64,000 bases of DNA from Otis tarda (Eukaryota > Chordata > Aves > Otidiformes > Otididae). Shown here one piece after another: positions 20,305 to 43,182 of this stretch; position 1 is the stretch's first letter, and each line of letters opens with the position of its first letter. Where the stretch lies: the NCBI GenBank assembly GCA_026413225.1, contig CM048575.1, positions 834,001 to 898,000 on the forward strand, read 5' to 3'. The position numbers and the translations under genes are program-made. The notes under the pieces were generated by a model. It was not told where the DNA came from. It was given only the letters and a program-made list of their open reading frames with translations, and ran no database searches.

Positions 20305-21843
20305 CTCTCACATGAAGCCCGGCGGTGGTGAGGTGCCGCGGTGCTGCAGAGAGCAAAGCAGAAGCAGGTCTGTGCGGTGGCAGCACCGCTGTCTGTGCGG
20401 GGAGAGAGGCAGGCACCCCTTTGTGAGCATCATCGCCCATTCCCGCTGCAGCAAAGGCCGCGCTAGCAGGGAACACGGGGCCAGCAGAGCAAAGCTCCGG
20501 CTCCAAAGAAGGGACCAAGCATTTTAAATACACCACCAGAGAGAGAGATGGCAAGTGCCAGCACACAGGAGGATTTCTCCTCCCCTCTCGATCACGACAG
20601 CTGGGAACATCTCACCCAGCGATACAAAACTGATCGAGGCAGATCCTCCCACTGCCATCCCACTCCTAACTTCCCAAGCCAGCAGCAGCCAGCAGCTCTC
20701 CCTGGCTCCGCAGCTCCCGGAGCAAACTGGCATGGTGGGTTGTGGTGAGAGCGTGAGAAGGTTTCCGAGATGGAGCATCTCTCCCTGGCTGGCAGCACTT
20801 CCAGCTGCCCTTGCGAAGCCCTGATCTCTCGCTGCCAGGAACGTGCCTGGGCCAGACCCTTCCCACTGCGCACGGGCTACGGAGAAGCCAGTATTCCCAG
20901 GGCAGCCGAGGAGCGGTGCGGGAGGAGATTCTCGCAGGGGGTCACCAAGCAGTGCTGCGCTTGCACAGGCTGTTCCTGCCGCCACACAGGGTGGGGTAAA
21001 GGTGGTTTTGTAACCGCTGGAGGGTCTGGGTCACCCCCTTCTGGGAAAGCGCTCGTGTCCGGATGGGATCTCACGGCAGGCGGTGTGGGCTCGCTGGCCC
21101 ACGGCTGGGACGCGGCGCGACAAGGGAGAGCAGGCGCCCGGCTCCCGGCCGGCTCCAGCCCATGCACCCCCGTGGGGCCCTGTGCCTCCCTGCCCGGCCA
21201 CGGCCTCACCCACTCGGGACACGCCAGACCCCCGCGCGGGGCCGCTCCCCGTGGGACGGCGGGGCCGAGGCTTCCTCAGGATTTCCGACACGGGGGGGGC
21301 CACCGGGAGACGCAGAAACCCCGCCGGCCACCGGCTCCGGCCCGCAGCGGGCAGGGCCCGAGCCCAGGGCAGCACGGGGGGGCGCCCTCCCCGCGCCAGA
21401 GCCCCCAGCCCCAGTAAGGCCGCCGGCCCTCGCTAGGCCGCGGGCCCCGCCGACGGACAGAGGTCACCCCTGAGGTGAGAGGTCAGAGGTCAACGCCCCC
21501 TACAAGGCCGCAGCCCCCCTCCCTCGCGGGGGTCAGGGGTCAGGGGCGGGAGGGGCGGGAGTCGCGCCCCCCCCCCCCCCGAATCCCCCCGGCGCGCGGC
21601 GGCGGCGGGGCGGGGCTGCCCGGGGGAGGGGTGTGGCCTCCCCTTCCCCCCACCCCCCTCGCCCGTCCCCCCCCCGCGGCGCGCGACGTCCGCCCTCGCG
21701 GCGGCGGCACGTACGGCGGCGCGCGCTGGGGCGCCCCCTCCCCTCTCCGCCGGGCCGGGCCCCCGTCTCGCCACGCCACGCCCCGCCCCGCCGCCGCCTG
21801 GCCCCTCCCGGCTCCCGTAGCGCGGCGCCGGGCGGCCCTTACC

Positions 21844-22280
21844 GTCGCCGAGCGGCCGATTCCGGGGGTGAGAGAAGGGAGGGGGGGCGGCGGGGGAGGG
21901 GGGGGAAACGGGCCGGGCAGAAGGGAGCATGCGCAGTAGCCGCCGCGGCCTCGGTCGCCAGCACTTCCGGCCGCCGCCTGCCTTAAAGGGGCCGGCGACG
22001 GCGGGAGCCGCGCGGGCCGCGCTGTGCTGCCCTCTGGTGGCCGCCAGCGGCACTGTCCCTCTGCTGCCCCCGTGAGGCCGGGACACGGGGGCTGGGACCC
22101 CCCACCGCCCGCCCGACCGGGTCCCCTGCTCCGCCCGGGAGCGCCGGCTGCTTGACAGCGAAGCGGCCCAATAGCGGCGCGGGGCCGGGCGGTGGCAGCC
22201 AATGGGCGTGGCGCGGCGGGCGGGGGCGGGCTCAGGGCGGCGGGCGCGGCGGGGCCGGCGGCGGCGGCGGCGGCGGGAGG
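21844..22280. promoter_or_regulatory. Bidirectional CpG promoter, GMEB1 and DCBLD-type gene
   Basis: A CpG-dense block separates two divergent genes. On the minus strand a non-coding GMEB1 first exon ends at 21843 with a GTAAGG donor, preceded by an NRF1-like GCATGCGCA (about 21928-21936) and an ETS-like CTTCCGG (about 21963-21969). On the plus strand the DCBLD-type start codon lies at 22281. A reverse CCAAT-like ATTGG is visible on the minus strand near 22200. The two starts are probably within about 300 bases. Confidence 0.65.
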
Positions 22281-25200
22281 ATGCGGGCGGGCGGCGGGGC
22301 GGCGCGGGGGGCGCTGGCGCTGGCGCTGCTCCGCCGCTGCCTGCTGCTGGGCCCGCTGGGGCTGCGCCCGGCCGGCGGACAGGACGGTGAGTGCGGATTG
22401 CGGGGCACCGGAGGCGGGGGACCCCGCAGCGGGACACGGCACCGAGAGTCCCGTTCCCGCTGGTACCCCCGGGGCTCCCCTTCCCTCGACGGAATGCGCC
22501 GTGACGGAACCAGGACCGGGACTGGGTCTGGGTCCGAGATGCGGACGGGGACCGGGACGGGACGGGTCCGCGGTGCTTGCCTGGCCCGGTACCGAGCCGG
22601 GACGGGCTGCTCGCTGCGTCCGGATGGGGATGGGCAGCCGGTACCCGCTGTCCCTGGACCGGGACCACGCCGGGTCGGGATCCCCACTGTCCACCTGCCC
22701 CGGTACTGAACGGGACAGGTTCCCCGCTGCCTCCGCCACCCCCGCGTTGCCCCGGTCCCGCATCCGGCTGATCTCCCCCGCAGCCCCAGCCCCGCTCCCC
22801 GTGTCCGCTCCCGATACCAGGGCGTCCCGGGTTTGGCTCCGTCCTTTCCCTGGGAACCCCCGATCCCTGGTTTAAGAGGATCGCTGGAGCTTATGGGGAA
22901 CAACCGGGCAGTGGGCTCTATCGCGGGGGTGGCTGTGGGTCCCGGCAGCGTCGCTCTGGGGGGATTGGCATCCACAGGGGTCTGGGAAGGCCCGCAGGGA
23001 ATGTTCAGCCAAACTTTATCCCGAAGATACAGTTTTGCCCTGTGCCGCACGTCCCCAACTCATCCGAGAATGAGAAGAAGAAGGTGGGACATACAAAGCA
23101 TCGGCCCCAGCCAGGGGAAACTGAGGCATGGGCCAGAACGGGATCAGCGGGGGCGCAGAACCCCACGGTGTTTCCCACGTGTGATTTGGGAGATATCCCA
23201 CAGCGGCTCTCCACTCGATCCCAAACCCCTCGGTGGATGCGGGGGAGCTCTCCCGGGGCCGGCAGCGTGCCGGGCTTTTCCCGTAGCATCGCCCTGTTGT
23301 GTCTTTCCTGCATCCTGTGAGAAACCAAACAAATCACTGGCAGGGACGGCCTGGCCGCAGCTTCGCCCTCACCCAGCGGAAATCCAGTTTTCCCATTTTT
23401 TGGCAATTTGGCAATTATTTTGCGTGGCCAGGGGCCAGTCCCCAGCCTCCCCCCGTGGCTCTGCCTTCACCATTCCCGGCCCCTCGCTAGCAAAATCGGA
23501 GCCAAATCCCTGTGTGTGTGTGCAGCTCTCTGCTTATCTCTGGCATGCCCGCTCAGCATGCGCCGGCCACACTCGGGATGCTTTCACCGAGGATTTCCTT
23601 TCCCGGGATGGGTTTTTCCCAGGATGGGTCCTCCCTCCACACCCACTGGCGTGGGGTTGGGGCCGGGGGGGTCCATCCAAGACCCCCAGCTTGGGCACAC
23701 ATGCCATGCTGTCCTGGCTGCAGAGGGTTTTCCATGCAGATCCCAATGGCTCTGAGCTTCGTTGCCAGAAACTCCCCCAAAATACCCCAAATTTCTCTCC
23801 CCCCAGCACAGCAGCGCTTTCCCCGTGTCGTTACCCCTGTCCAGCCTCGCCCAGTTGCCCCCCTGACACCCCTGGAGGGCCTGATCCTTCCCGGCTCTGC
23901 CATAACATGGGCTGCTGCCCAGCTGGGGTGGGAAATCGAGGATTTCCCCTGGTCCCACATCCCTGCCAAGGGGGTGTTCACAGGATAACCCCCCCGATTT
24001 GGCCGCCAGCCCTTTCCGCAGGCTGGATGGGGGCGGGCTCCATCGGGGGGCCTTGGCATCTTCTGCCTCCGGCCCCCCCTTTTTTTAATCCCTGTAGGAT
24101 TTTCCCTCGCTGGCGCTTTGTGTGGTCTCCCAGCGACGCCGAGAGGAGCCAAGGCATGGGCGAAGCCGTGCCCACCATCCCTTTTCTTTCCAGCTATGCC
24201 AGGACAATGCTTGGCAGGAGCAGCAGCAGCTTTTTGGGGATGCATGGGGGGATGAACGATGGACCCCCCCCTCCCCAGCCCATCCAGTGGGACTGAGGGG
24301 TGCTTCCCCCTTCCCCACACCCCAATCCTGCCCCAGCTCCACCAGAAATTCCTGCCGGTTCCTGACACTGGCCGCTTTGAACTCAAATTTCCAGGATATT
24401 CCCTCATGCCCGGGGGTGGCTGGCCCGGAGAAAAACTCCTTTTGTGGTGGGCGCTGGCGTGGCCCCAGGGAGGGGGCGATGGGGGTGCAGCTGCCCAGGG
24501 TCATCCTCAAGGTCAAGGCTGCAGCTGGGGGGTTCCTGGGGGCTGCTCGGTGCTGTACAACCCCATGTGTCGGGGGTATTTCCTCCTTGCATCCTTTTGT
24601 AGCCCCCCAAAACTGGGGTCTGCCTGGCCTGGGGGATGGAGAAGAGCTGGAGGTGCTGGTCTGTGCTGGGTAGCTCTGGGCGAAACTGAGGCAGCTTCAT
24701 CCCTGGGTCTGCCGTGGACTGTCCCCGGTGTGGGGAGCAGCCAGCAAAGCCACCAAAAAATGATAACAAAAACGTTTGAAGGGGCTGCAGGTGCCTGTGG
24801 GGTGTTGATGGGGGCTGTACCGAGTGGGGAAACTGAGGCAGGGAGCACCTCGACTGAGCTCCACCCCCCATCTCTCCACAGGGGACGGCTGCGGCCACAC
24901 ACTGCTGACACCCCACAGCGGCACCCTCAGCTCCAAAAACTACCCTGGCACCTACCCTAACCACACCGCCTGCCGCTGGCGGCTACGGGCCCCCCCGGGC
25001 ACCTCCCTCCTCCTGGCCTTCGGGGACGTGGACCTGGAACCCTCCGAGCGCTGCGCCCGCAGCTCCCTGCTTCTCACAGACCCCCAGGCCGGCACCGCCT
25101 ATGGTAAGGGGGGGAATCTGAGGCAGCGCCTGCTGAGGGGCTGCGGATGGGGCTGAGGGGGGCGAGATCACTTTACGTAAAGTCCTGGATAAGGAGAGGA

Positions 25201-28200
25201 TCAGGAAAATCTAGCTTTTTAGCTGATTTCATCCTGAGGAGGGGGGTATTTGAGGACGGGGATATCCAGAGACAGGGGTATCTGAAGAGGGGGTACCCAA
25301 GGAGGGGGGCTGTTGTCAAGCCCGGTGGGGGCACCCAGCTGGGGACAGGTGCAGCCACCAATTAATTGTCTGCCCAAACGCTTCCAGGATTTTTCCAGAG
25401 AGGTCTTGGAGGGATTTGACAGCACCGGGAGCATGGCACGTGCTGGGGGACACGTCTTGGGAGGGGGAGGAAGCGTCGCCGCAGGGGTGTCAATGGAGAG
25501 GGATGGAGGAACAGCCCCGAGGCCCGGTGAGGGGCAGGGGACGCTGTGGGAAAGGTGGGGCGGAAAGGAGCCAGTTTAGATCCACTGCTGCTCCCAGGAC
25601 TGGGATTTTTCTCTGTTTTCCAGGGCTTTCACCCTTTCTGGGCTGGTACCCAGAGGGGTGACAGCACATACAGTCCCCATCCCCTCTGCCGTGGCCTCGG
25701 GTACATGCTTGTCCCCATCTCCCAGGACCCCAAAGCCCAGAGACTGCCTGGCCCAGGCTGAGGGGTCCCAGAGCAACGTGGGGGCGACGGGACCCGCAGA
25801 CGATGCTCCTGGGGGGCTGGCAGAGGTGGCAGGGCACCCGCAGCCCCTTTGGGTGCCTTTGCCGGAGCGGTGCGTGCCAGTGGGTGGGGGGTGACACTGG
25901 GCCAGGCCAGGATCCCGCTCCCTCGCCAGCAGCTGACGCCGGCCCTCGAGAACTTCCAGATGTTTTTCGGGAAGCGGCCGGAGCAGGCGGAGGCCGTGGG
26001 TTCCCTCCTGCTGACTCAGACCCGGTGTCTGGCACACGGCCTGATCCTGCCTGGGGACACATCGGGGACCCTACGGGGGTGGCAGCCTCCGGCCCGTGGC
26101 TCAGCTGAGGGGTCTCCAGCACCCAGCGGGTCCCCAGAGCCACTGGCCAGGTCCCCTGGGCTCAGCCTCTCGGTTAAATATGACCCAGGCAGGGCGAGGG
26201 TGCGGGTTGGCGTGGGGAAACTGAGGCACAACACAACCCTGCTGGGGGGGTTTCACTGCCAGTACTGTGGGGACACGGGACACAGCGCCCTGTCCCCAGG
26301 GCAATGATTGCATTTGCTCAGAGCATCTCCAGGTGCCCCGAGGCCCCAGTGATGGACGTGAGACAGAGCAGTGACGTGGAACAGAGGGGTGGTCTGGGGA
26401 TTGGGGCCACCTCTTGTCCCCAGTTGGGAGCGGGGATGTCCCCAAGGAACCTGCCTGAGCACTAAGCCGAAGTTTTAATCAGGGAAATGGAGACTGCAAA
26501 TTAATTTGGATTGAAGGGAGGGCGGGACTTAGGAGGCAGCTTCAGCAATGCGAAAGGGGAGATGGGGAGGGGATGGGGACGCAGCCCTCGTTTTGGGGTC
26601 TTGCGGGGTCGTGCTGCGCGTGCAGCAAGGGATGTGGTGGCAGGTGCCCAAAAAGGGCCAGTGACCACCCACGCCGTACCAGCCGTGGTGGATTGAAGAG
26701 GCCCCGGGGGAAAGTGTTTCTGGGAAGCCATGGGGGAGTCCCTGCCCCAATCCTGGAGGTGGGGACATCGCGGGGTGTCCCTCCACGAGCCCGGTCCAGC
26801 TCTGACCCCCGTGCCTGCGGGCTGTGTCCCCCCTGGTGCTGCTTGTGGCTGTGGGGGAACGGTGGGGACAGGACAAGCTGCGGGGGGCTGTGCCCCAGGT
26901 CCCTCCCATAGCAGGGATGTAACCGCTCTGGGGTTACATGGGATCCTGACATGGGATCCTGACATGGGATCCTGACATGGGATCACCCTGAGATGGGACC
27001 ACCCTGGGCACAGCGCAAATGCCTGAGCGCCCTGGCGAGGGCCGAGCCAGAGGAGGTGACACCTTGGGGTCCGGGTGCCCACGCCTGTCCCCGGGAAGCC
27101 CCAGTCCCCTCCACAGCCCCTCCCTGCCAGCAGGGCCCTACTGCAGGAACGCCGTCCCTGCCACCTCGCTCCTGGTGACAAACTCCAGCACCATGACCGT
27201 CCTGTTCAACAGCACCAGCCACCGCTCGGGACGAGGCCTCCTCCTGTCCTACGCCACCTTGCAGCACCCAGGTAGGGAGGAAGGATCCCCCCGGCTGTGT
27301 CGGCCCTCGGGGTGGCAGGGGGCACAGCTGGGGGCGGAGGTTGCTCCTTGCTGACCCCCGGGTGGGCTTCCATCGCCCTGAGCACCCTGAAGGCCCATGT
27401 TCTTCCTGGCTGGGGGTACAACATGGGAGACCCCCAGGTCACTCAGGCAGCCGGGATCCCCCACAGCACCCTGGACCCCCCAGGACCAGGGAGTCATCCC
27501 TCCCTGCCTCTCTGGGACAGGGTGGCCTGGGACCATGGGGGATGCTGTGGGGGTCCCTCACCCTGGGGTGTCCTTGCCTTGCAGACCTGGTCTCCTGCCT
27601 GGTTCGAGGCACCCACTACACCCAGGAAGATGTCAGGTGAGCGGTCCCTGCTTTGGCGTCCCCCACCCCAGCAGTGCTGCCTGATTTTGTCCCGGGTGCT
27701 ATGCTCGCCCTGGAGCTCTTGGGGTGCAACGGTGGCAGGATGGGGAGCAAAGCGGGTGCGCAGAGGTGGTTCAGACGAGGGCGAGCCCTCATCCTGCCAC
27801 CTCACTGTGTATTTCAGCATCTACTGCCCCGCGGGCTGCAAGGACATCGATGGGGACATCTGGGGCAACCCGAGCCAGGGCTACCGGGATGTAAGTGCAG
27901 AGCCTGGCTCTCCCTGCTGCACGGGTCAGCACCCATGGGTGCACCCATTGGGGACAGTTCCCAGCACGCGTGGCTACTGCTTGTCACCCCCTAGCAGACC
28001 GCAGGGGATGGGTTTGGCCATGGGGTGCCTGCTCTCACCCCTACCCTGCTCCCCACAGACTTCGGTGCTGTGCAAGGCGGCGGTGCATGCCGGGGTGATC
28101 GCGGACGAGCTGGGCGGCCAGGTCACTCTGTCCCGGGAGAAGGGGATCACGCTCTACGAGTCGGCCTTCGCCAATGGGCTCCACTCCAAAAGGTGGGCGA

Positions 28201-31200
28201 GAGGTGGGGCTGGGGACCCCGGCTGCGGGACCCGTCTGCGCTGACACTGCAGACCTGCCACCCCTCAATTTTGGAGACCCTCAGGGTTTGTTCACCTGGG
28301 GAGCCCCCCATCTGATGCTCCCCCTGCTTTCCCCCTGCAGGGGATCCCTCTCCGAGAAGCGGCTCATATTCCACAAAGGTATTTTTCCCCATTTCCCCCC
28401 AAATTAATCCACGATTTTGGCTGCCAGACATGGTGCCACCCTCTCCTTGTGCCCAGCCGGGGGTCTCAGGCTCCCACCCTGCTGTCTCCCGTTGCCAGCC
28501 TGCAACGATGTGCTGGAGGTGGCTGCCTTCAACGCCTCGTCCTGGTGGCATGAGGTGGACGCACTGGGCCAGGACCGAGCCTGGGCGGCCGAACGGGCAG
28601 TGCTCGGCACCACCGGCCACTCCTGGGCCGCCGAACCCGGCTCCAACAGTGCCTGGCTGGAGCTGGACCTGGGCACCCGCCGAAACGTCACAGGTGAGTC
28701 CTGACCAGTGGAGCCCGTCCCCATGGCACCCTGACCACTGTCCCCTCCATGGTGACATGGGTGTCAGCCTCACTGACACTCCCAAAACGTGCCCAGAGTG
28801 GTTGCAACCCCTCCGTAACACAAGATGGATTGGAGCTCCTTGTGCCATGGTTATACTGGTGCAAACTGGGATGCAGACAGCACCAGCCCCCCAAGCTTTC
28901 CCCATCCCCCTTTTGTCCCCGCTATCCCTGCCACCCCCCCTCACCCGCAGCCATTTCTGGGACGAACAAGTTAATATTATGCTCTTGCATCTGGTGCCAG
29001 CGAGTGCCTTTTGTTCGGCCGGAGCCTGCCGAAAGCAGGGGCTTTGTGCAGCGGCGGCTGGCGACCGTGGGGAGGAAAATGGGGACATTGTCCGGCCAGA
29101 GGCTGGAGGAGGGAGGAATGCGGAGCTGGCAGCCAGGGCTGGAGGTTATCGGCTCCTGGGGGCAGAGTGGGGAGTCCAACACTCGAATCTACAGCACACC
29201 CAAGCCTTTCCCCAGCCCTGTACTCCCCGACTGACAGCAGGGCCCCCCGTGCCCCGGGCTCACTCCTGCACCAACAGGTATCATCACAAAGGGCTCCTCC
29301 GAGCTGTACGACTCCTACGTGACAGCCTACCACGTCTCCTCCAGCCGCGACGGGAAGAACTGGAGACCGTACAGAGGCAGCGGTGGCCAGGAGGACAAGG
29401 TGGGCATGGCGGGGGGACAGGGATGACAAGGGGACACAGATCCTCTGCCCGCAGATGTGTGGCCATTGGCGCCCTCTCCGCCAGGTCTTTGAAGGAAATG
29501 CCGACAGCCATGGGGAGGTCTCCAACACCTTCATCCCCCCCATCGTCGCCCGCTACGTCCGCATCACACCGCAGAGCTGGCACCAGCGCGTGGCCATGAA
29601 GGTGGCCCTGGTGGGCTGCCAGCTGGCACGAGCCCGCGCGCCCCGGCCCTATGGTGAGCCCCTCCGCGGGACCTCGCACGCCGATGTCTCAAACATCCCC
29701 TGGGGACGTCCACCTCCCTATGCACCCCATGGTGGCCCCACAGTCACGGTCCCCGCTCTGCCTTGCAGTGCCTAGCGACCCCAAGGAGGTCCCTGTCCCC
29801 ACCAGCCGCCCAGCCAGCCACACGCCCATCCCTGGCGTCGCCCTGGACCCGGAGAAAGCAGGTAGGCGCCATGGTAGGGGCTGTCCCTTGGGTGCAGGGT
29901 TTTAAAATCCCCCTGTGACACTGATTTTCTTCCTCTGGTGGCCCCAAGTCGGGTCCTGACACCCATGGGTGCAGAGGGGTGGGATAGGGCACCCAGGGTC
30001 TGATGCTGCCCTCCCTCCGCAGGCTCCACACTGCTGGTGATGCTGCTCATCGGCGGCTTCGTGTTCCTCTGCTCGAGCCTCCTGGTGCTGGCTTTCCTCT
30101 GCCACAGGAAGAGGTGGGTCCCCTCCTGCCCCCCATTTCACCCTGGGGAACCTGGCATCGCGCCCCCCAAAGCATGGCAGCTCCGTTCGGCTGTTTGCTG
30201 GGTACTGAGGGGCGTAGCCCCCCCATGCAGCGGGGGTGAGGAGGCGGGTGGGTGGTGTTGGGCATGGGGTGGCCGGGACCCCTCACCCCCATCTCGCTCT
30301 CCCCTTGGCAGGAAACCGGCAGCGGAGCTGAACTGCGGGATCACGAAAGGTAAAGGGCCCCCAACCGCTCCCCAGGGTCCCAATGCCTGGGGACCAAATT
30401 CAGGAGGGATGCAGCTGGTTTACCCTGGGGGCACCAGTCTGTCCCCGGGGGCTGGTGTGTGACAACCAAGGAGCTTCTGCTCTCTGCTCAGGGTACCCCA
30501 AACTGGAGCTGAGCCAGGTGTGCTCCCTGCGGAGCCTGCCACCCCACGGCACCACGCTGGCCTCCTTCCCCGCAGCTCCTGCGCCGGGGGACCTCAGCCG
30601 GACCCATTCGCCAGGTAATGGGGACATCGGGGTGCGAACGGGTCCCTCAGCCCAGAGCCGGAGCTGTGTCTCCCCCAGTGCATCCTGGGGTGCCAATTCC
30701 TCCCCCCAGCACCACTCTGGTCCAACCCCTGTCCCGCATCATGGTCCTGTGCAAAAGGAAGACCCTGGCAGGGCTTATTATTCATTATTATTATTATTAT
30801 TATTATTCCACCTCAAGCACAGGCGTGGGTGTTGGCAGGCGGCACCAGGAGCCCCACCATGTGCTGGGGCAGAGGGACGTGCCTGTCCCCGCTGCGTTTT
30901 GGCCCATGTCTGCCCAGCTTTCCCCAGCCCTGGGGATCCAGATGTGCCCGTTTTTTTCTCCACCCAGCCCACTCACACCTTGAACAGCACCGTGACCCCC
31001 TCACCGCGGTGGGGACAGTCCCCAGCTCAGAGCCCGGTATCCCCATTGCAGAATACGCTGAGCCCGACCTGGTGCAGCTGAGCCCCAGCAGCCAAACGGG
31101 CCCTTCCACCTTCAAGCCGCTCCCGGATGAGGGCTACACGCTGCCGCTGGTCGTGAGCCACTACGACGTACCGGGAAAATACCACCCGTACGCGGAGCCG

Positions 31201-31422
31201 CTGCCGCCTGAGCCCGAATACGCTATGCCGTTCAGCGAGCCCGAGCCCGCCGCCGCCCGCCGCCTCGCCGGGCCGCCCGCCGAGCCCCCGCTGCGGTACG
31301 ATGCGCCCGCCCGCCGGGCCGAGGGGGCCGCCAGCCCCGGTGGGGACGGACCCTCTCCGGAGGGGGCCCGCTGCCAGCCGGGGGACTGTCCCTTGTCGCA
31401 CGTCTACCACGAAGCCTTGTGA
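22281..31422 (+). CDS. DCBLD-family receptor (CUB-LCCL-discoidin-TM), third paralog
   Basis: Single-pass membrane protein of the DCBLD/neuropilin-like family. Fifteen coding exons close in frame to 654 residues: 22281-22386, 24882-25103, 27134-27271, 27585-27636, 27818-27890, 28059-28192, 28341-28378, 28499-28693, 29278-29399, 29485-29653, 29769-29861, 30023-30113, 30312-30349, 30492-30614, 31052-31422. It has a signal peptide (1 to about 33), a CUB domain with four cysteines (about 38-155), LCCL (about 157-254, with YCPAGC and ADELGGQ), discoidin/F5-8C (255 to about 410, with FIPPIVARYVR), a short stalk, one TM helix (about 449-473) and a tail to 654. The tail has six Tyr-x-x-Pro motifs, the CRK/CRKL SH2 docking pattern of DCBLD1/2. 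The closest remembered sequence is DCBLD2, but the locus differs from both human genes. N-glycosylation sequons occur in the ectodomain. It shares a promoter region with GMEB1. The first and last exons are the least certain. Confidence 0.9.
22387..24881 (+). other. Intron 1 of the DCBLD-type gene
   Basis: GC-rich intron. Its first 400 bases are G/C-tract low-complexity sequence, giving long chance frames on both strands. No second conserved exon, RNA gene or transposon was recognised. Confidence 0.8.
26937..26985. repeat. 13-bp minisatellite, 3.8 copies
   Basis: The unit CATGGGATCCTGA is repeated three times exactly with a fourth partial copy, inside the intron before the second CUB exon of the DCBLD-type gene. 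Near-perfect copies suggest a recent expansion. Confidence 0.9.
30775..30807. repeat. TTA trinucleotide microsatellite
   Basis: A nearly uninterrupted TTA run, broken once by a C, in the last intron of the DCBLD-type gene. It is likely polymorphic. Confidence 0.9.
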
Positions 31423-40105: not shown

Positions 40106-41367
40106 CTAGCACGAGCATCTCTTCCGCTTCTCTTCCTTCTCTGGCGCCTGAGCCTTGAGCGGCACTGGCAGCGGGACGCTGCTCTTCACCCCGTCCCAGG
40201 CCTCGGTGGGAGCCAGCCGCCCCGTTTGCAGCGCCTGGTAGATGGCCAGCGTCAGCATCTGGAAAGCCTGGACCACGTTGCTGGCGTCCTTGGCCGAGGT
40301 CTCGATGTACTGCACCCCCAGCGACGCTGCCAGCTTCTCTGCCTCCCTCCTGCCCACCCGCCGCTGCCCTGCCAGGTCGCTCTTGTGTCCCACCAGCAAG
40401 AAAACGATGCGGAAGGGCTGGACCGTGTCTGTCACCTCCTGGTGCCACTGCCGGACGCTCTCGAAGGATGCGCGGTTCGTGAGGTCGAAAAGCAGCATCC
40501 CCCCCGCCGAGTTGCGGTAGTAGGAGCGAGTCACCGACCTGGGGCACAAGGAAAAACAGGGTGAGCGGCCCTCGGGGCTCCCCCCGTGCCGCCTTGGGCA
40601 GCATCTCTCCTGGCCGTGTCCTGCTCCTGGCACCCGGCGCGTTGCTCCCAAGCTACCATAGAAGCGAGGAGAATCATCCCTTTTCAGGCAGCTCTGTCCC
40701 TGCGTGGCCATCAAAGCTCATCTGTCCCCTGCAGCCATGTCCCCATGAGCTCTCCTGTCCCCAGCAGCCCGGCCGCAGCCCTGGCAGTGTGATGTGAAGG
40801 CTCCCTGCAGCCGAGCTGAAAGCCACTTTGCCCAGCTCCCAGCCTCTTCCCCCAGCTGGTGGGGCAGAGAGGTGCGGGGTGGGGTACCTGTACCCTCTTT
40901 GGAGCGGGAGCCAGGGCTCCTTTCCCTGGGGAACACCCTTGGCTTTGTCTCATCTGGGCCCCTGCAGCCTGCGCAGTGCTGGGCATCATGGTTCCCACCA
41001 GCACAGGGACTGGTGGGAGCACAGCCAGGATCCCCCTGCCCCCCAGATCAGGACCACAACATCCCACCAGGACCCCAAATCTTGGGGGGGAGGCGGGGGG
41101 AGGGGGGCCACACTCAGCTCCATCACCCTCCCCACGCCATGGCTGGACCCACCTGAACCGCTCCTGCCCGGCCGTATCCCAGAACTGCAACTTCACCCTC
41201 AGCCCCGGCTCCAGCTCCACGAACTGGACGTAGAAATCCACCCCCACCGTCTGGTTGACGGCATCCAGGAAGATGCCCTCGGTGTAGCGCCGCAGCAGTG
41301 ACGACTTCCCCACCGTCGAGTCCCCCAACATGATCACCCGGAACTGGTACTGCCACCGCGGCTCCAT
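40106..41367 (-). CDS. RAB39-like small GTPase (tandem paralog of RAB42)
   Basis: Membrane-trafficking Rab GTPase. Two exons, 41153-41367 and 40106-40538, join inside the Arg codon after the G3 box to give 215 residues. Motifs are the P-loop GDSTVGKS, switch I TVGVDF, G3 DTAGQERF, G4 GHKSDL in place of NKxD (as in RAB39/42), G5 ETSAKD, and a C-terminal Cys-Ser-Cys for double geranylgeranylation. The QPFRIVFLLVGHK segment and the GDSTVGKS loop match RAB39A/B better than RAB42. The start MEPRWQYQFRV is chosen over an in-frame upstream ATG because RAB39 proteins start METIWIYQFR. An ATTAAA on the minus strand (39985-39990) gives a short 3'UTR. It might be annotated as RAB42-like or RAB39-like elsewhere. 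Confidence 0.9.
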
Positions 41368-41867: not shown

Positions 41868-43182
41868 TCAGCACTGGCAGCGCTCCCGGGGCTCCCCCTG
41901 TGCTGGGGGCTGGCGGCAGCTCTGGCTGGGGATGAGCCTGACGCCCTCGCAGCCCCTGTGAGGGGCGAGGGCCCCCTGACCCAGCGCCTGCTGGATGCTC
42001 CCCGCCAGCGTCTGGAAGGCCAGCTCCACGTTGAAGTTACTGCGGGCCGAGGTCTCCACGAAGGCCATGCCCAGCGCGGCGGCCAGGTGCCCGGCCTCCT
42101 CCGCTGACACGGCTCGCTCGGCCACCAGGTCACACTTGTGTCCCACCAGGACAAAGGCAGGGGGCCGGTCCCCGGCGGCGTCGCGGTACCACTGGGGAAC
42201 GTGCTCGAAGGACGCACGGTTGGTGAGGTCGAACACCAGCAGCACCCCTGCTGCGCTCCGGTAGAAGGATCTGGTGATGGACCTGGGCACAATGGGGGAA
42301 AGGGATTTTGGGGGGCACCCCAGCACTCCCTGCACCCACTTTCCCGGGATGCGTCTCTGGGGACTTTTGGGTCCCAGCTGGAACCTCAGGAACAGGGAGG
42401 TGAACCCGGCCGCGACCATTTGCACCCTTTTCTGGAGGGCTCCAGAGACCGGCGGGGTTTTGCAGAGGCGCTCGGGGCTCCCTCCATCCTCCCCCGACCC
42501 CCCTCCTCCTGGGGATGGGGTAGCACCCACGGGTGGGTGCTGATGGGGCAGACACAGGGCACCCCCAAACTGACCCTGGGGTCCCAGGGATGGGGGCAGT
42601 GCGGGACCCCCGGCTCCAGCCGCAGCGCCCAGCTCTCCAGCCCTTCGCGCCCCCTTTGCGCCTCTTTCACGCGCCCAGGGGCTCCGGGCTGCAGCCTGAT
42701 GCAATCGGGAAGGAAACCACCCAGCCCCAGCACCGCAGGACCAGCACCCAGCCCTGCTGCCTTGGCTGCCCCCCAAAACCAGCTCAAGGTTTCACCGTCC
42801 CCTAAAGTGTCACCGTCCCAGTGAGCCACCGCTGCCTGTCCCTGTGCGCCCGGACAGGGACTTCATCCGCCCTGGGGTGCGGGGACAAGTGAGCAGGGTG
42901 CTGGGGTCCTGCCTGGGGCTGCGTCCTCTCCCCGCCTCACCTGAACCTCTCCTGGCCCGCCGTGTCCCAGAGCTGCAGCTTGGCCTTGCCGGCGGGCGGC
43001 AGCGGGACAGTGCGGCTGTAAAACTCCACACCGACGGTGGGGCAGGGGGTGGCCGTCCCCGCGCCCGGACCCTCGGCAAAGCAGCGCAGCAGCGACGACT
43101 TCCCCACCGCCGCATCCCCCAGCACGATGACGCGGAACTGGTAGTGTCCCTCGGGGTCGGGGTCCTGGGGGGGACTGGTCAT
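41868..43182 (-). CDS. RAB42: RAB42 small GTPase
   Basis: Rab GTPase, 218 residues from exons 42941-43182 and 41868-42282, the length I recall for human RAB42. The P-loop is GDAAVGKSS, followed by a Gly/Ala/Pro insertion before switch I (TVGVEF) where human RAB42 also has a Pro-rich insert. G3 is DTAGQERF, G4 GHKCDL, G5 ETSAR, and the C-terminus Cys-Gln-Cys as in human RAB42. The segments FYR..GVLLVFD.TNR.SFEH, GMAFVETS and IQQAL.QG also track human RAB42. In-frame upstream ATGs at 43191 and 43209 exist; 43182 is preferred for length. AATAAA copies at 41722-41727 and 41697-41702 (minus strand) end the transcript about 330 bases from the start of the RAB39-like gene. Confidence 0.93.

Follow-up and report, generated by a model that had tools for sequence, protein, structure and literature searches.

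The window, a 64,000-nucleotide stretch of Otis tarda DNA (C24:834001-898000 of the assembly), features a third gene of the DCBLD receptor family, for which we use the working name 'DCBLD3'. The gene is very probably live and most likely represents the 2R ohnolog of DCBLD1, kept in this lineage within a four-way paralogon whose human 1p35-like arm is C24. It is also likely, with somewhat less assurance, that 'DCBLD3' was born in 2R, was kept in birds (perhaps also in reptiles and fish) and was lost towards humans; early vertebrates would then have had no fewer than three members of the family. We know of no DCBLD gene at human 1p35. Ohnologs that are kept in birds and lost in mammals are a common pattern, which limits the surprise of the result.

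If this reading is true, a family that is taken as two has a further member, and knock-out results for mammalian DCBLD1 and DCBLD2 are not directly transferable. The third member would tell which tail motifs persist over deep time, since four YxxP motifs are common to all three proteins, and it would serve as a natural comparison when the specificities for ligands and adaptors are worked out. The excerpts of a 2020 paper that deal with the family introduce it as two proteins, DCBLD1 and DCBLD2, and describe them as scaffold receptors that are investigated in development and in the repair of vessels (PMC8015000); heart-valve disease and cancer are further fields of study named in literature excerpts. 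The name 'DCBLD3' gave no hit among 5.39 million papers, no third bird DCBLD appears in the literature passages searched, and database annotations may carry a '-like' record. A single mention of 'dcbld1l' in gibel carp presents it as a gene fragment and says nothing about its evolution (PMC8448357).

Gene Structure and Neighborhood

The third DCBLD gene consists of 15 exons at window positions 22281-31422 of the forward strand. The earlier note had claimed 15 exons coding for 654 residues, and this model was rebuilt with an open frame and with GT-AG at 14 of 14 introns. The spliced exons comprise 1965 bases, that is 654 codons and a TGA with 0 internal stops, and the remaining two frames of this spliced string contain 11 and 7 stops over the same number of codons. 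The GC content at codon positions 1, 2 and 3 is 0.66, 0.55 and 0.86, respectively. A retrocopy is ruled out by the 14 introns. The exons are listed below; the agreement in length with the paralogs at exons 3-6 was partly favored by the method, because candidate paralog exons were ranked by their closeness to the lengths of the third gene.

22281..22386, + strand: exon 1, start codon and signal-peptide-like leader (open frame with GT donor; leader identified by eye)
24882..25103, + strand: exon 2, first part of CUB (exon identity 50% with DCBLD1 on C3 and 56% with DCBLD2 on C1)
27134..27271, + strand: exon 3, second part of CUB (138 bases, as in both paralogs)
27585..27636, + strand: exon 4, around the LCCL start (52 bases, as in both paralogs)
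27818..27890, + strand: exon 5, LCCL (73 bases, as in both paralogs)
28059..28192, + strand: exon 6, LCCL (134 bases, as in both paralogs)
28341..28378, + strand: exon 7, LCCL-discoidin linker (38 bases versus 41 in both paralogs)
28499..28693, + strand: exon 8, discoidin start (7 residues shorter than in the paralogs)
29278..29399, + strand: exon 9, discoidin (spliced open frame, Pfam)
29485..29653, + strand: exon 10, discoidin end (spliced open frame, Pfam)
29769..29861, + strand: exon 11, extracellular stalk (spliced open frame)
30023..30113, + strand: exon 12, transmembrane helix beginning at residue 448, then a basic stop-transfer stretch (open frame; helix judged by eye)
30312..30349, + strand: exon 13, juxtamembrane tail (spliced open frame)
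30492..30614, + strand: exon 14, tail (spliced open frame)
31052..31422, + strand: exon 15, tail with six YxxP motifs and stop (spliced open frame, motif scan)

The gene had been placed between GMEB1 and TAF12, and the neighboring stretches of the window agree with this placement. Nine of the ten neighbor stretches examined with Pfam gave a match, and the one without a match is a GMEB1 stretch. The genes are given the names of the human proteins that we take them to encode, by comparison with analyst-supplied human sequences.

2597-2998, - strand: YTHDF2, exon of the YTH domain (Pfam and human protein)
16.4-18.0 kb, - strand: GMEB1, exons of the SAND region (Pfam and human protein)
21251..22750, no strand: CpG-island-like stretch (GC 0.78-0.83 and CpG observed/expected 0.79-0.92 in 500-base windows)
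35.5-37.7 kb, + strand: TAF12 (Pfam and human protein)
40.2-41.3 kb and 42.0-43.1 kb, - strand: two Rab-type GTPase genes (Pfam and human proteins)
52.0-63.4 kb, - strand: TRNAU1AP (Pfam and human protein)

The CpG-rich stretch lies between GMEB1 on the reverse strand and the third DCBLD gene on the forward strand, and it is possibly a promoter shared by the two.

Domain Architecture

Pfam searches of the 654-residue protein revealed CUB at residues 39-149 (4.4e-16), LCCL at residues 167-242 (1.1e-15) and F5/8 type C at residues 279-398 (6.9e-27), all above the curated cut-offs. This order of CUB, LCCL and discoidin is the order of the DCBLD family. The discoidin domain is followed by a single hydrophobic helix, which starts at residue 448, and by HRKRK at residue 475, both determined by eye. 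The ectodomain features 10 cysteines (residues 39, 66, 93, 113, 160, 176, 180, 202, 256, and 405), and the alignment places all ten in the same columns as cysteines of DCBLD1 and DCBLD2 from this genome. In both paralogs the exon taken as exon 8 has 21 more bases, so that the third gene lacks 7 residues where the discoidin domain starts. The earlier note had called all phases, cysteines and domains intact; the open frame and the ten cysteines bear this out, and the 7-residue shortfall adds a footnote to the statement on the domains.

The same shortfall is consistent with a gene that still reads open and is unexpressed or decaying, as is the result that AATAAA, ATTAAA, AGTAAA, TATAAA, and AAGAAA were not found within 878 bases 3' of the stop codon. 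Such a gene would nevertheless have kept 654 open codons, GT-AG at every intron, a CpG-rich start, and the ten ectodomain cysteines together with four aligned YxxP motifs since a very old split, which makes an unexpressed or decaying gene very improbable.

DCBLD1 and DCBLD2 in the Same Genome

The genome searched comprises 1.198 Gb in 116 contigs. Among the 68 of 129 candidates scored, which gave 66 matches, the 654-residue protein matches two loci besides itself in all three domain parts, one at C3:72.41-72.45 Mb on the reverse strand and one at C1:93.69-93.72 Mb on the forward strand. The further loci among these scored candidates matched in one part each, mostly CUB or discoidin. A search of the genome for the LCCL family, in which all 14 candidates were scored, gave 11 matches, of which three are the third gene and the C3 and C1 loci. 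The gene on C3 is 74% identical to human DCBLD1 and the gene on C1 is 79% identical to human DCBLD2, with analyst-supplied human sequences. Matches to GOPC, also with an analyst-supplied sequence, are located ~15 kb from the last exon of the C3 gene, and the passage of a published chicken list that covers chromosome 3 gives GOPC and DCBLD1 together (PMC6678660). By sequence and by the neighboring GOPC, the C3 gene is DCBLD1; by sequence, the C1 gene is DCBLD2. The earlier note had proposed a separate third receptor and had named a species without DCBLD1 and DCBLD2 genes of its own as a case against it; both genes are present, on C3 and C1, and the third gene is thus distinct from them. A search of viral contigs with the 654-residue protein gave 7 pattern stretches with no relative among them.

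From DCBLD1 and DCBLD2, splice-consistent readings were obtained for exons 2-10 and for the last exon, and exon 1 was left out of the comparisons. The paralog exon scan imposed the intron phases of the third gene, so the agreement in phase is imposed as well. The option taken was not the nearest in length, or has a length unlike that in the third gene, for DCBLD1 exons 8 and 10 and DCBLD2 exons 2 and 10. Exons 11-14 of both paralogs were partly found by the splice scan and were left out of all comparisons. In that scan the transmembrane exons are plausible and the remaining candidates for exons 11-14 are weak; one stretch from the exon 11 scan resembles what we take to be the DCBLD2 tail.

Sequence Distance and Phylogeny

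The ectodomain of the third gene is identical to that of DCBLD1 at 186 of 370 positions (50%) and to that of DCBLD2 at 160 of 373 positions (43%), and DCBLD1 and DCBLD2 of this genome are identical to each other at 182 of 379 positions (48%). Compared with the 74-79% identity to the human orthologues, these values suggest that the third gene split off well before the parting of birds and mammals. Five of five whole-ectodomain trees place the third gene outside the pair formed by DCBLD1 of this genome and human DCBLD1 (analyst-supplied sequence), with bootstrap values of 75-99. The support is 75/68 with a mixture model and 98/97 with LG+G4 in the five-row tree without an outgroup, and 92/93, 99/98, and 90/92 in the trees with outgroups.

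These results bear on whether the third gene is a recent, fast-evolving duplicate of bird DCBLD1 or DCBLD2 that moved to C24, a nesting that the earlier note had named as evidence against its reading. The branch of the third gene is long, with 1.23 or 0.74 changes per column versus 0.14-0.24 for the DCBLD1 tips, and trees that force the third gene together with DCBLD1 of this genome or with human DCBLD1 retain p-AU values of 0.083 and 0.080, respectively, under the mixture model, which is disfavor short of formal rejection. Both observations would fit a recent duplicate; however, the stem of DCBLD2 is about equally long (1.26 or 0.69 changes per column), and the distance between the third gene and DCBLD1 is close to that between DCBLD1 and DCBLD2. 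The alignment columns argue in the same direction. Both DCBLD1 rows are alike against the third gene in 108 columns, the third gene is like DCBLD1 of this genome only in 20 and like human DCBLD1 only in 16, which indicates that it has no special affinity to the DCBLD1 of its own genome. The third gene also has introns and is located in a block that is paralogous with that of DCBLD1. A recent bird duplicate was rejected as unlikely on identity, block pairing and the trees, in all five of which the third gene branches outside DCBLD1 of this genome and of human.

The position of the third gene relative to DCBLD1 and DCBLD2 depends on the root. In the rooted trees a grouping of the third gene with DCBLD1 receives 46/15, 48/33, and 71/76, and the alternatives are not rejected (p-AU 0.22-0.27); the rooting is weak, since the outgroup rows were assembled as chimeras from parts of neuropilin-2, factor V and LCCL, and the program flags long branches throughout. 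The trees are compatible with all three rootings, including one in which the third gene is an old paralog that predates 2R or is closest to DCBLD2, so that the C24 site is ancestral and the third gene does not have DCBLD1 as its direct 2R partner. The last exon, which is slightly nearer to that of DCBLD2 (39/114) than to that of DCBLD1 (31/116), favors this alternative and was counted against the ohnolog of DCBLD1. The 33 columns that unite both DCBLD1 and both DCBLD2 rows against the third gene were likewise counted against a sister relationship with DCBLD1. In contrast, 31 columns unite the third gene with the two DCBLD1 rows and separate it from the two DCBLD2 rows, 10 show the reverse, and the tree of the CUB domain alone groups it with DCBLD1 (91/99). 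The LCCL-only tree sets DCBLD2 apart with 98/100 and leaves the place of the third gene relative to DCBLD1 unsettled, and its position is also unsettled in the F5/8C-only tree, in which the outgroup branches are very long. Against an origin before 2R or next to DCBLD2 there is, in addition, the location of DCBLD1 in the block that matches C24, whereas DCBLD2 is not near the family members found. Taken together, we regard that origin as unlikely, and an ohnolog of DCBLD1 as the better account.

Chromosome Block Pairing

The ohnolog of DCBLD1 proposed here draws on the pairing of two chromosome blocks. Whole-genome searches with five gene families found the C24-C3 pairing in four of them: SESN, SERINC, NKAIN, and HDAC are each represented on C24 and again on C3 at 69.0-76.6 Mb, around DCBLD1 (72.4 Mb). 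The choice of families followed the expectation that they would pair, based on the list in the earlier note and on background knowledge, and does not constitute a blind scan. For comparison, C24 and the 10 Mb surrounding DCBLD1 account for 0.7% and 0.8% of the genome, respectively. The members of the four families are located as follows.

NKAIN: C24 at 2.25 Mb, C3 at 69.0-69.3 Mb, C21 at 14.4 Mb, C2 at 125 Mb
SERINC: C24 at 2.35 Mb, C3 at 70.2 Mb, C21 at 6.5 Mb, and others
SESN: C24 at 4.75 Mb, C3 at 76.6 Mb, and two others
HDAC: C24 at 7.32 Mb, C3 at 74.0 Mb, and others

The fifth family, YTHDF, has genes on C24, C21, and C2, and the whole-genome search found no copy on C3. All five families have further copies elsewhere in the genome. 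The other two arms of the paralogon are marked by NKAIN and YTHDF, at C21:14.4 Mb and C2:125 Mb, and no three-part DCBLD match was found on C21 or C2 among the 68 of 129 candidates scored. The 1p35/6q22 pairing thus exists in this genome and contains both DCBLD loci, on C24 and C3, and the HDAC and SESN pairs that had been put forward earlier were both recovered. DCBLD2 is located on C1, outside the quartet of C24, C3, C21, and C2, and may be either a duplicate from before 2R or an ohnolog that has moved. The claim that the third gene is a 2R ohnolog of DCBLD1 was strengthened by the block pairing and by the branching outside DCBLD1; its sisterhood to DCBLD1 in the rooted trees reaches at most 71/76.

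Tail Motifs and Proposed Function

The 174-residue tail features six YxxP motifs, at residues 533, 560, 569, 578, 588, and 614, versus 1.65 expected, and 20 of 20,000 composition shuffles reach six. The four motifs YAEP533, YDVP569, YAEP578, and YAMP588 align with sites in both paralogs. In DCBLD1 and DCBLD2, the tyrosines of YxxP are phosphorylated by Fyn/Abl, which drives binding of the CRKL SH2 domain, according to the relevant excerpt of one study (PMC6029619), and the excerpts of the family paper add that regulation by FYN and ABL extends to 14-3-3 and further partners (PMC8015000). By analogy with these two receptors, the third protein is predicted to be a type I single-pass scaffold receptor at the cell surface, with CUB, LCCL and discoidin outside and the YxxP tail inside. 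Src-family or Abl kinases would phosphorylate the YxxP tyrosines, the phosphorylated motifs would dock the SH2 domains of CRK/CRKL, and this docking may tune adhesion or growth-factor signaling. Expression of the gene and a ligand for its ectodomain are likewise presumed.

Comparison with Known Receptors

Neuropilins (NRP1 and NRP2) share two of the domains, and the CUB and F5/8C domains of the third protein are recognized in PDB chains. The NRP2 matches cover CUB twice and F5/8C twice and contain no LCCL, and a neuropilin identity for the third gene is ruled out by its LCCL and its single discoidin domain. In the PDB-chain alignment, the Asp on which the C-end-rule pocket of neuropilins depends corresponds to a Gly of the third protein, and the neuropilin way of binding a VEGF tail is therefore not expected in the third protein.

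DCBLD2 (ESDN) has the same architecture as the third protein, with 43% identity in the ectodomain and a common tail block around YAEPLP and PEYA.P. DCBLD2 differs in its location on C1, at a distance from those members of the paralogon that were found, and in its longer last exon. DCBLD1 features the same CUB-LCCL-discoidin-TM architecture and YxxP tail, 50% identity in the ectodomain, and a location in the paralogous chromosome block. Compared with DCBLD1, the third gene is at a separate locus, its last exon is shorter, and the start of its discoidin domain is 7 residues shorter. Its tail contains six YxxP motifs versus the eight given for human DCBLD1 in the excerpt of the phosphorylation study (PMC6029619).

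Paralogous regions and neighboring genes

The C24 contig, which carries the third DCBLD gene, forms one arm of a four-way paralogon in the Otis tarda genome, in which NKAIN copies mark all four arms and YTHDF copies mark three of the four.

C24; C3:69-77 Mb; C21:14.4 Mb; C2:125 Mb: paralogon arms (markers NKAIN and YTHDF)

Sestrin genes are located on C3, C24, and C1, and a fourth is found on C5. Three human sestrins are known, thus the C5 gene may be another ohnolog that was retained in the Otis tarda lineage.

C5:673667-676947, + strand: fourth sestrin-family gene

The TAF12-TRNAU1AP interval features a tandem pair of Rab-family GTPase genes, presumably one RAB42-like and the other RAB39-like.

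Window 40241-41343, - strand: first Rab gene, two exons recognisable
Window 41994-43137, - strand: second Rab gene, two exons recognisable

Since RAB42 is the sole Rab gene known from the equivalent human site, one of the two may be a further gene without a counterpart there.

Discoidin domain

Compared to DCBLD1 and DCBLD2, the third DCBLD gene is seven residues shorter, in frame, where the discoidin domain begins.

Window 28499-28545: in-frame seven-residue shortening
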